This document shows, in pieces, positions 2,077-9,858 of a DNA stretch of 53,866 nt (position 1 is the stretch's first letter; each line of letters begins with the position of its first letter). A model generated the notes under the pieces. That model worked only from the letters and a program-made list of their open reading frames with translations. It ran no database searches and was not told the origin of the DNA. A program made the translations under genes and the position numbers. Origin of the DNA: Thaumarchaeota archaeon casp-thauma3 (GTDB lineage: Archaea; Thermoproteota; Nitrososphaeria; Nitrososphaerales; Nitrosopumilaceae); NCBI GenBank assembly GCA_001510275.1, contig LFEY01000024.1, positions 1-53,866 of the forward strand. Reading direction: 5' to 3'.

Positions 2077-3465
2077 TTGTCACAAGTCTTTCATGAAATT
2101 GAAAAAAAAATTATCATCTCTCTAAAAGACAATCCAAAGCAAACCCCTGAGATTCTTGAAAAATCTACAAAACTTTTACCAGATCAGATTAGACGAGGAA
2201 TTGAATGGCTTAAACTTAAAGATCTAGCAATTGTCAATGAATCAAAAACAAGTATTATTAGTTTAGGTAAAAATGGTATTGAATCTTTTCAAAAAGGATT
2301 ACCTGAAAGAAGATTACTAAATTTACTAAAAGATGGCCCTAGAAATTTATCTGATTTGCAAAAAGAACTTGGACCTGTTTTTGGACCTGCTATGGGGTTA
2401 GCTAGAAAAAATAATTGGGTTGAAGCATCTTCAGAACAAATATCCCTTAAGAATTCACCTTCTGAACTTCCTGGTGAAAAAACCCTCAAACAAATTGGAG
2501 AAAAGAAACTTCAACAAGATAAAATTGATAAAAGTGATTTATCAGGACTTTTGAAAAGACCTGATTTTATAATTGAGGATATTGTAAAAACCAAAGAAAT
2601 TAGTTTAACTGATTCTGCAAAGTCTATAGACCTTTCAGATTCTTTTGGAGCAATAGATGTTGAAGCAAAAGTACCTGAAGTTTTTGTTGCAAGAACTCAT
2701 CCATTAAAAGACACTATTGATGAAATTCGTGAAATTTTTGTTACATTGGGATTTTCAGAAATCAATGGAAATATGACTCAATCAAGCTTTTGGAATTTTG
2801 ATGCTCTATTTACTCCACAAGATCATCCTGCAAGAGAATTACAAGATACATTCTATCTAGATGGTATCTCTGCCAAAAAAATTGCAACTCCAGAACAAAT
2901 TCGAAAAGTTTCTGAATCTCACAAGAAAAATTGGAGATATCATTGGGATATTAATGAAGCAAGAAAAATGGTTCTAAGAACTCATACTACTTGTGTTACC
3001 ATCAAATATCTAGCTGAAAACAAACCTGATGAATCTAGAGTTTTTTCATTAGGACGTGTGTTTAGAAATGAAAAGGTTAGTTACAAACATCTTGTAGAAT
3101 TTAATCAAATTGAAGGAGTTGTTGTAGGAAAAGATGCTAACCTGAGAAATTTAATGGGAATTCAACGAGAATTCTATAAACGAATTGGAATTACAAAAAT
3201 AAAATTCTGGCCAACATTTTTCCCATACACCGAACCATCACTACAAACTATGGTGTACAATGAAAGATTAGGAAAATGGGTAGAATTATTTGGAATGGGA
3301 ATTTTCAGACCTGAAGTAACTAAACCTCTTGGAATCACTAAACCTGTTTTAGCATGGGGAGGAGGTATTGAAAGAATTGCAATGCTAAAGTATGGCATTG
3401 ATGATGTAAGAGAATTTTACAATAACAATTTAGGTTGGTTAAGGAGTGCTAGAAAATGCCAGTAG
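2077..3465 (+). CDS. pheS: Phenylalanyl-tRNA synthetase alpha subunit
   Basis: This is the 462-residue catalytic alpha chain of the alpha2-beta2 PheRS, a class II synthetase. The N-terminal ~100 residues are winged-helix-like repeats as in archaeal/eukaryotic PheRS. The catalytic domain (about 200-460) contains the motif FDALFTPQDHPARE, the segment FSLGRVFRNE (motif 2) and the C-terminal GGGIERIAML (motif 3). The start is a TTG at 2077, set by the TATA-like element about 26 bases upstream and the absence of an earlier start. It overlaps pheT by 10 bases, indicating translational coupling of the two subunits. Confidence 0.96.
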   Translation: MSQVFHEIEKKIIISLKDNPKQTPEILEKSTKLLPDQIRRGIEWLKLKDLAIVNESKTSIISLGKNGIESFQKGLPERRLLNLLKDGPRNLSDLQKELGPVFGPAMGLARKNNWVEASSEQISLKNSPSELPGEKTLKQIGEKKLQQDKIDKSDLSGLLKRPDFIIEDIVKTKEISLTDSAKSIDLSDSFGAIDVEAKVPEVFVARTHPLKDTIDEIREIFVTLGFSEINGNMTQSSFWNFDALFTPQDHPARELQDTFYLDGISAKKIATPEQIRKVSESHKKNWRYHWDINEARKMVLRTHTTCVTIKYLAENKPDESRVFSLGRVFRNEKVSYKHLVEFNQIEGVVVGKDANLRNLMGIQREFYKRIGITKIKFWPTFFPYTEPSLQTMVYNERLGKWVELFGMGIFRPEVTKPLGITKPVLAWGGGIERIAMLKYGIDDVREFYNNNLGWLRSARKCQ

Positions 3466-5081
3466 TTGAATTATCATATACTCGTCTTCAAAAATTAATT
3501 GGCAAAGTTACAAAAAAACAAATTTCTGATTCCTTACCCTTTCTTGGATTGGATATTGAATCTGAAGATAAAGATCTAATCCGAATTGAATACAGCCCAA
3601 ACAGACCTGATTATTCAACAGATTTTGGAATTGCACTTGGATTACAAGGATTGCTTCGAATCAAAACTGGGGCAATTAAACTGAATATCAAAAAATCAAA
3701 CAAATATTCAATATCTGTAAAATCTGATGTATCAAAAATTCGTCCGTTTGTAACTGGTATTATTGCAAAAAATGGAAGAATTGATGATAAAACAATTAAG
3801 CAGTTTATGACCATGCAAGAAGATCTTCATTTTGGAATAGGACGAAAGAGAAAGAAATCATCAATAGGGATTCATGACTTAGATGTGATTTCATTTCCTT
3901 TAGTTTACAGAACCACAAATCGAAATCATAAATTCATTCCATTAAACTCTAAAAAAGAACTTTCAATTTCTGAAATCCTCAAAAACACTGATGTAGGAAA
4001 GAATTATGGTTCTATACTTGGAAATTCTCCACAAGTTCCTCTGATTTTAGATGCAAAACAAAATACCATTTCTTTTCCTCCAATAATTAACGCAGCAGTA
4101 ACTACTGTTACAACTAAAACAAAAAATCTCTTTGTTGAAGTAACTGGAATCAATAAAGAAGATGCTGAAGATATGCTTTCAGTTGTTGCGACTATTTTAC
4201 AAAGTGCTGGATTCACTTTAGAATCAGTTCAAATTTCTGGTGCAAAAAACTCTTCCCCAAAACTTGAACAAAAGAAAATGTCTGTAAATCCTTCCTTGAT
4301 TAATCAAATCCTTGGGTTGAATCTTAACACTTCAAAGATTATTTCATCATTAAAAAAATCTAGGTTAGATGCATTAACTAAAGGCAAAAATATCATTTGT
4401 ACAATTCCTGCATACAGATTTGATATTTTTGGACCAATGGATTTGGTAGAAGAAGTTGCTTTAGGGTATGGAATTCAAAATCTTGAACCTACATTGTCCC
4501 CTTCTCAAACAGTTGGCCAAAAACATCCCAATTCAGTTAATTTACAATTAATTTCTTCTATAATGACTGGATTAAGCTATATGGAATCTCTAAATTCTAG
4601 CTTAACAAGTAAACAAATTCTTTATGATAATACAAAAAGAGACTCATCAAAAATTATCTCAGTTTTAGATTCTAAAAGTATTGAACATACTATTCTTAGA
4701 GATTCATTACTTCCAGGATTAATTGATAGCCTAGCAAAAAATATTCATGAATCATACCCTCAAAAATTATTTGAGATAGGAACCATTTTTAATAAAACGA
4801 GTTCTGTAACTGAAGAAACTCATCTTTGTGCAGTAAGTTCTCATAAAGATGCAAACTTTAGTGAGATAAAATCTATTTTACAATCTGTTATTCAATCAAT
4901 ATTTGGAAAAACTTGTGAAACTAAAACCACCACTCATCCAACTTTTAAAAAAGGGCATGTTGCAAACATCGTTGTTGATGGAAAAGTTATTGGAATAATT
5001 GGTGAAATCAGCAAATCTATTAAAGATAACTTTAAGCTTAGAGAACCAATAGTTTCTTTTGAAGTAAAACTACCTGGTTAA
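3456..5081 (+). CDS. pheT: Phenylalanyl-tRNA synthetase beta subunit
   Basis: This 541-residue beta chain partners PheS. The archaeal/eukaryotic-type layout is visible: the N-terminal domain with the EYSPNRPD motif (about residues 47-54), a B3/B4 editing-type region (about 90-260), a B5 domain ending in PAYRFDIFGPMDLVEE (about 320-335), and a catalytic-like C-terminal core ending in a conserved strand (FEVKL). The length matches archaeal PheT (about 540-560), shorter than the bacterial form. The ATG at 3456 lies inside the end of pheS. Confidence 0.95.
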   Translation: MPVVELSYTRLQKLIGKVTKKQISDSLPFLGLDIESEDKDLIRIEYSPNRPDYSTDFGIALGLQGLLRIKTGAIKLNIKKSNKYSISVKSDVSKIRPFVTGIIAKNGRIDDKTIKQFMTMQEDLHFGIGRKRKKSSIGIHDLDVISFPLVYRTTNRNHKFIPLNSKKELSISEILKNTDVGKNYGSILGNSPQVPLILDAKQNTISFPPIINAAVTTVTTKTKNLFVEVTGINKEDAEDMLSVVATILQSAGFTLESVQISGAKNSSPKLEQKKMSVNPSLINQILGLNLNTSKIISSLKKSRLDALTKGKNIICTIPAYRFDIFGPMDLVEEVALGYGIQNLEPTLSPSQTVGQKHPNSVNLQLISSIMTGLSYMESLNSSLTSKQILYDNTKRDSSKIISVLDSKSIEHTILRDSLLPGLIDSLAKNIHESYPQKLFEIGTIFNKTSSVTEETHLCAVSSHKDANFSEIKSILQSVIQSIFGKTCETKTTTHPTFKKGHVANIVVDGKVIGIIGEISKSIKDNFKLREPIVSFEVKLPG

Positions 5082-5103
5082 TATTTGACTAAGTATACTA
5101 TTG

Positions 5104-5275
5104 TATGCCCTAAGAGCAACCATGCAGACGGATTGGGATGATGTCGATCGTATTGATACCAATGATTTCCAATTCACCCAGGCATGGCACATTAAGGGCG
5201 CCCCGGTTTCAGAACCCAAGGAGGTTTTGGCTAAAATACCAATGATCTTGTGCGAGTCAGAACCGGGGAACAATT
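5104..5275 (+). ncRNA. Structured non-coding RNA candidate, possibly tandem H/ACA guide
   Basis: This stretch between pheT and the EVE gene is much richer in G and C than its AT-rich surroundings and contains long complementary arms. First hairpin: lower stem 5120-5125 with 5182-5187, upper stem 5132-5136 with 5169-5173 (or 5159-5163), and an ACA at 5189-5191. There are 15 bases between the upper stem and the ACA, as in archaeal H/ACA guides. The apical part holds a GATGATG/TTGA pair resembling a kink-turn. Second hairpin: perfect 8-bp stem 5201-5208 with 5261-5268, again followed one base later by ACA (5270-5272). A TATA-like TTAATATTT at 5078-5086 fits a start near 5105. One caveat is that GCCCT 5107-5111 could pair with AGGGC 5195-5199 and bury the first ACA, so another RNA class is possible. 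Confidence 0.6.
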
Positions 5276-5332
5276 TCATTTAACAAAAATTGAAAAACCA
5301 TAAAACATCCATTACTGATACAGAAAACTGAA

Positions 5333-9694: not shown

Positions 9695-9705
9695 AATTTT
9701 TAACG

Positions 9706-9858
9706 TGGGGCCGACCGGAATTGAACCGGCGACCTACGGGTCACTACAGCTCCAAACTTACATCATCCGTGAGTCAGTTTAGCTTAGTTTACCTCTGGAG
9801 CCCTTAGCGGTGATCTAATCGTAGACACTGTCGCCCTACCAGGCTAGGCTACGACCCC
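9706..9858 (-). tRNA. tRNA-Trp(CCA) with two predicted introns
   Basis: The minus strand folds as a tRNA only when two inserts are removed. Acceptor GGGGTCG (9858-9852) pairs with CGGCCCC (9713-9707) with discriminator A at 9706. The D arm is normal, and the T loop TTCAATT is closed by GCCGG/CCGGT. Exons 9858-9830, 9803-9795 and 9741-9706 join to a 74-base tRNA with a perfect ACGGG/CCCGT anticodon stem and loop CTCCAGA, giving anticodon CCA (Trp). Intron 1 (9829-9804, 26 bases) lies in the anticodon stem and sits in a good bulge-helix-bulge: helix GGCG/CGCT, bulges ACA and AAG. Intron 2 (9794-9742, 53 bases) is at the canonical 37/38 site with a weaker motif. The 3' CCA is not encoded. Confidence 0.88.

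Follow-up and report, generated by a model that had tools for sequence, protein, structure and literature searches.

The window analysed here, a stretch of 53,866 nucleotides from Thaumarchaeota archaeon casp-thauma3 (contig LFEY01000024.1, positions 1 to 53,866 of the forward strand), carries pheT at 3456–5081 (+), as located by tblastn, and directly downstream of it a conserved block at 5107–5272 (+) in which the 5′ strand of an enclosing helix, hereafter the clamp, a first hairpin and its ACA box, and a second hairpin and its ACA box can be recognized. A preliminary description, made from the letters alone, had singled out this locus as G+C-rich in AT-rich surroundings, which agrees with its 47.7% G+C vs. 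31.7% for the whole window; only two stretches of equal length reach 47.7% in the 53.9 kb, the RNA locus itself and an intron-containing tRNA gene around 9.7 kb. The latter (9705–9858, minus strand) is missed by Rfam and by a default ARAGORN run and is called tRNA-Gln(ttg) with a 69-base intron when introns are allowed, but its CUCCA and UUUGGAG halves point instead to a tRNA-Trp interrupted by two introns. At the RNA locus, the two hairpins lie where that description had put them, with ACA boxes at 5189–5191 and 5270–5272, each beginning in the source genome one base past its lower stem. The fold has a minimum free energy of −55.8 kcal/mol; relative to dinucleotide shuffles, its z is −2.4, a modest value on its own, and it is covariation that backs the fold.

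Within the genus, a nucleotide search detected the RNA gene in 81 of 95 genomes, and in 54 of 56 when only the best assemblies are counted, as one copy each and with conserved edges running from about 5107–5109 to 5272. A covariance model (R1) built from 66 distinct congeneric sequences (alignment A1) recovered it throughout the 20 genera of the family (161 of 167 genomes), including such hosts as Nitrosarchaeum and Nitrosotalea. Beyond the family, weaker matches came from other families within the order and class. The hairpins taken singly reach further: among the 161 genomes sampled within the order, a model of hairpin 2 matches 123, in 36 of 46 genera, and it also matches other classes of the phylum, where a model of hairpin 1 likewise detects relatives. 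At such distant loci, hairpins 1 and 2 lie next to each other with order and strand preserved, often immediately downstream of pheT, and in the sampled members of one family (f3), hairpin 2 is matched and hairpin 1 is not. Two RNA copies each were seen in G128 (L145, L146) and G129, which belong to the same genus; one of the G128 copies resembles another genus, so that mixed assemblies are possible.

According to tblastn, the RNA usually starts 25–30 nt past pheT on the same strand in most genera, and this close linkage suggests that the two are cotranscribed there. In many Nitrosopumilus genomes, roughly 100–360 bases separate the matched PheT end from the RNA, and in most genomes of this genus (L007–L030), where the pheT end is further upstream, a conserved TTTTTAGTA-like element precedes the RNA by roughly 30 bases. 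This element, absent upstream of the RNA in the source genome's own clade, may be the RNA gene's own promoter where pheT is further away. The short spacing found in most genera would also suit a structured RNA of some other type, for instance an element acting in cis at the 3′ end of pheT or the EVE gene's leader, yet we hold such a reading to be very improbable, because of the longer distances found in many Nitrosopumilus genomes, because many genera have no adjoining EVE gene, because other classes have hairpin 2 with no PheT match nearby, and because the H/ACA anatomy and rRNA complementarity presented below would be left unaccounted for. As for a short protein-coding gene, both strands are indeed open in the source genome (ORFs at 5101–5283 on the plus and 5070–5279 on the minus strand), but the comparison with relatives refutes it and reduces its probability to a negligible one: stops occur in 52 to 66 of the 66 congeneric sequences in every frame and strand, indels do not come in threes, and changes track base pairing. 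Rfam 15 has no family above its gathering threshold at the RNA locus; when the search was extended down to E = 10, snR75 and mir-77 alone appeared, which we regard as noise, and 12 distant loci searched against Rfam matched only tRNAs.

The conservation among relatives on which the preliminary description had staked its proposal is found in nearly the whole family, and covariation accompanies it. Standard pairs fill 96.8% of pair cells across the 66 congeneric sequences; double changes occur in 127 cells, against 41 in shuffles, and sliding the structure along the same sequences lowers pairing to 30–52%. In an alignment of 45 divergent sequences (A2), double changes affect 34 of 43 pairs, and the distant alignments of single hairpins covary as well. 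Published geometry offers a yardstick for this structure: in productive archaeal guides, 10 layers are stacked between the closing pair and the second G.A pair, and ACA follows the closing pair at a distance of 14–16 bases, best 14–15 (PMC4652768, PMC7991803).

Hairpin 1 (5119–5191 with its ACA box; 75.5 bits with model R3, relatives across the phylum) has a lower stem of 6–7 pairs, whose 5′ strand at 5120–5125 pairs with 5182–5187 (98.7% of cells paired, three doubly changed pairs) and which is followed by the first ACA box (5189–5191), invariant in A1. Its pocket, AGACGG/YYACCCAG, exposes a 5′ guide GACGG (5127–5131), present in every row of alignment A7, and a 3′ guide ACCCAG (5176–5181), invariant in the family and kept as ACCCA in all A7 rows. 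The upper stem (5132–5141, paired with 5164–5173) includes one U.U and two G.A pairs, the latter belonging to a kink-turn formed by UGA (5139–5141) and AAUGAU (5161–5166), with a typical three-base bulge, tandem G.A pairs and an invariant UGA. Between A5132–U5173 and the second G.A pair, 10 layers are stacked, and the 15-base distance from upper stem to ACA noticed at the outset is confirmed as bases 5174–5188, counted from this closing pair. Above the kink-turn, an apical extension AUC-loop-GAU (5146–5157) reads ACC/GGU or GCC/GGC in relatives, and in several genera hairpin 1 is without this apical part, its kink-turn being replaced by a K-loop of 7–8 bases. A GAGCA motif (5114–5118), which sits on the 5′ side of the loop separating the clamp from the lower stem, is invariant in the 66 congeneric sequences and absent in the K-loop forms. 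In the rows of A2, GAGCA and the apical AUC-GUNNN-GAU extension are lost together across genera, suggesting that the two may be in tertiary contact.

Hairpin 2 (5201–5272 with its ACA box; 84.2 bits with model R2) stands on a lower stem of 8 pairs, CCCCGGUU (5201–5208) with AACCGGGG (5261–5268), in which 99.8% of cells are paired and double changes appear in alignment A4; this length falls within the usual 7–9 pairs, and the second ACA box (5270–5272), which is invariant in A1 and forms the 3′ end of the conserved block, follows after one base. The pocket holds a 5′ guide AGA (5211–5213), 1–3 bases longer in other lineages, and a 3′ guide GUCAG (5256–5260). The upper stem (5215–5220, paired with 5247–5252) is doubly changed at 6 of 6 pairs and, past a single bulged base that precedes the G.A pairs, leads into the second kink-turn, in which GA and GG (5221–5224) face CCAAUGA (5239–5245); CC.AUGA is invariant there and GAGG nearly so. 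Kink-turn motifs, at first described as possible, are present in both hairpins, here GA (5221–5222) with AAUGA (5241–5245). From the closing pair (columns 117–156 of A1) onward, the GA stem of hairpin 2 counts 9 layers plus the bulged base, with RUGA/GA conserved, which is an allowed form of this stem (PMC4652768). In the source genome, 16 bases separate the closing pair from ACA; relatives in other classes are without two of the pocket bases and have 14.

The preliminary description had also noticed that a pairing of 5107–5111 with 5195–5199 would hide the first ACA, and had seen in it a reason to doubt an H/ACA identity. The pairing itself is conserved and covaries; as an objection it falls, since what it forms is a conserved clamp helix. 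Its strands, GCCCU (5107–5111) and AGGGC (5195–5199), enclose hairpin 1 and its ACA box with a GCCC/GGGC core that is doubly changed at 4 of 4 pairs in A2. In other families across the phylum, pairing is kept but the clamp is replaced by entirely different sequences, among them GGCCTCTGC/GCAGAGGCC, GGCTTTCGTC/GACGAAAGCC, TTGTGGTT/GACCACAA, CCCACCG/CGGTGGG, and TGCCCAC/GTGGGCA. The 3′ strand starts immediately past ACA in 23 of 26 sequences, and three bases past it in the source genome. For the shorter clamps, single-sequence shuffle tests are weak, and the evidence is this turnover of sequence with position kept. The ACA box of hairpin 1 is thereby found neither at an open 3′ end nor in a single-stranded linker but inside a loop closed by the clamp, and the RNA is, as comparison of sequences tells, an H/ACA guide of a clamped variety. 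At five distant loci (L397, L398, L402, L403, L408), an outer helix such as GGGCGC/GCGCCC appears to enclose hairpin 2, and clamping may apply to both hairpins in several distant lineages.

The guide bases of both hairpins are unpaired yet conserved across the phylum, and we looked for their complements in rRNA. Free-register scans returned many sites that were no better than those in shuffled rRNA, and were replaced by scans with a fixed geometry taken from the literature; target positions are given in Escherichia coli 23S numbers, assigned by hand from conserved sequence. In its canonical register, hairpin 2 matches helix 69 of 23S rRNA at CUGAC-UC-UCUU, with U1921 as the predicted site and two bases of the form U-N left in the pocket. 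In 10 of 13 genomes, this uridine comes first for hairpin 2 among all uridines of the 23S rRNA; in the other 3 it is not top-ranked. The duplexes count 6+3 pairs in Nitrosopumilus and 6+6 in two distant genomes, and in four tests, 0, 0, 1, and 6 of 400 shuffled rRNAs did as well. Moreover, the unpaired AGA and GU(C/U)AG of hairpin 2 are conserved, and the C/U change leaves the pairing with the rRNA intact, as G-C or G.U. A candidate site at position 914 of the L071 23S rRNA was discarded, as the rRNA varies there and the guide does not change to match.

The 3′ pocket of hairpin 2 is longer by two bases (GR) in Nitrosopumilus and its order, and these could pair with U1921–C1922 and move the site to U1923. 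The source lineage would then guide U1923 through a 3′ guide GAGUCAGA pairing with U1915–C1922 (8 pairs) and leaving U1923–C1924 unpaired. Such a register finds its best match here with 8+2 pairs, the 16 bases to ACA are still allowed, and the base at column 158 of A1, opposite a U, varies between A and G only. It has, however, just two pairs on the 5′ side. The conserved AGA is put to use in the U1921 register, which is also the sole one possible in those relatives from other classes that are without the two extra bases, so that we consider guidance of U1923 decidedly improbable.

By far the best 23S match of hairpin 1 lies in the peptidyl-transferase loop, at CUGGGU-UUAGA-CCGUC, where the 3′ guide is complementary to 2579–2584 and the 5′ guide to 2590–2594 through 6+5 Watson–Crick pairs. 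This match ranks first within the genome's own 23S rRNA in 4 of 4 genomes tested, and is equalled in 0–1 of 400 shuffles when gaps of 2–6 are allowed. It leaves five target bases unpaired (UUAGA, 2585–2589) instead of the usual two, and a canonical two-base site for hairpin 1 was found neither in 16S nor in 23S rRNA, even with bulges allowed by hand. One 16S candidate, GGUGAA-UA-CGUC, was dropped: it calls for U at alignment column 72, some relatives carry C there, and the base in this column pairs inside the upper stem.

The absence of a canonical 16S or 23S site, the five-base gap and the clamp around hairpin 1 would all be in keeping with a hairpin that grips the peptidyl-transferase loop while the ribosome is being assembled and modifies nothing, hairpin 2 alone guiding pseudouridylation. 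Some eukaryotic H/ACA RNAs (snR30/U17) likewise act without modifying. Against this stand the features of a working guide that hairpin 1 keeps, namely its 10-layer GA stem, its 15-base distance to ACA, its kink-turn or K-loop and its ACA box, and the fact that haloarchaeal Hvo1 targets L2621, which we take to lie in the same loop; a purely structural role for hairpin 1 appears unlikely to us.

We favor instead the reading of 5107–5272 as an archaeal double-hairpin H/ACA guide RNA with helix 69 and the peptidyl-transferase loop as targets, which the conservation, structure, rRNA complementarity, and synteny established above make highly probable. This identity is what the preliminary description had proposed, with the reservation that the family might be unnamed; the conservation, covariation, kink-turns, ACA distance and guide–target complementarity argue for the first, and the lack of an Rfam match is consistent with the second. 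Once transcribed, as we presume it to be, the RNA would bind L7Ae at the kink-turn of each hairpin and Cbf5–Nop10–Gar1 at each pocket and ACA box, by analogy with the family. In hairpin 2, GUCAG would pair with C1916–C1920 and AGA(N) with U1923–U1925(U1926), leaving U1921–C1922 unpaired, and U1921 is predicted to be converted to pseudouridine. In hairpin 1, closed below its ACA box by the clamp helix, ACCCAG would pair with CUGGGU and GACGG with CCGUC, presenting U2585/U2586 within the five-base unpaired segment as candidates for modification. Hairpin 2 is ordinary in kind; the clamp and the target geometry of hairpin 1 are unusual. A more specific version, in which a phylum-wide clamped RNA grips the flanks of 2585–2589 with hairpin 1, either as an assembly chaperone or as a non-canonical modifier of U2585/U2586, while hairpin 2 modifies helix 69, is tentative, and we find it possible but would not yet call it probable.

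From a comparative perspective, the closest counterpart is haloarchaeal, the Hvo1 and Hvo2 motifs being both part of one double H/ACA RNA. We take their targets, L2621 and L1956/L1958, to be E. coli 2586 and 1915/1917, which would place them in the two regions predicted here and in matching order, so that both RNAs would have two H/ACA motifs with the peptidyl-transferase loop served first and helix 69 second. Compared by described targets rather than by sequences, they differ in that the helix 69 site predicted here is U1921 (or 1923), the peptidyl-transferase duplexes leave five bases unpaired, and a clamp encloses hairpin 1. The haloarchaeal motifs and targets are described together with the Pyrococcus guides Pa35.1-L2672, of fold type 10/8/7, and Pa40.3-L2016 (PMC4652768). 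The RNA shares with the Pyrococcus guides a GA stem of 10, 14–16 bases to ACA and a kink-turn, and hairpin 1 has the 10/8/7 fold of the Pa35.1-L2672 model, a likeness in fold type and not in sequence or target position. Several of the canonical and H/ACA-like RNAs sR201–sR210 of Pyrobaculum resemble hairpin 2 in having a base bulged out close to the G.A pairs (PMC4652768), but these crenarchaeal RNAs are single hairpins, most without the lower stem that is strong here. The literature searched yielded no H/ACA guide from ammonia-oxidising archaea. The double H/ACA RNA found here is real, phylum-wide and absent from Rfam, and a single gene adjoining pheT would explain guided modification both at the peptidyl-transferase loop and at helix 69, an inter-subunit bridge, throughout the phylum. 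In this regard, the clamp around an ACA box and the five-base gap offer a probe of how strict the accepted geometric rules of H/ACA guides are.

In Trypanosoma brucei, helix 69 has five guided pseudouridines (518/522/524/528/530), of which position 528 is guided by TB3Cs2H1 and 530 by TB11Cs6H1 (PMC10662448). The spacing of these sites would fit U1911/1915/1917/1921/1923, in which case the site predicted for hairpin 2 would be 528 and the alternative one 530, although the trypanosome guides are eukaryotic RNAs without kink-turns, on a different scaffold. As a side observation on this helix, 23S rRNA genes of several distant genomes (L336, L339, L341, L342, L344) appear to bear introns inside helix 69, beside the predicted target site, as indicated by an interruption of the usual sequence before AAGGTAGC.
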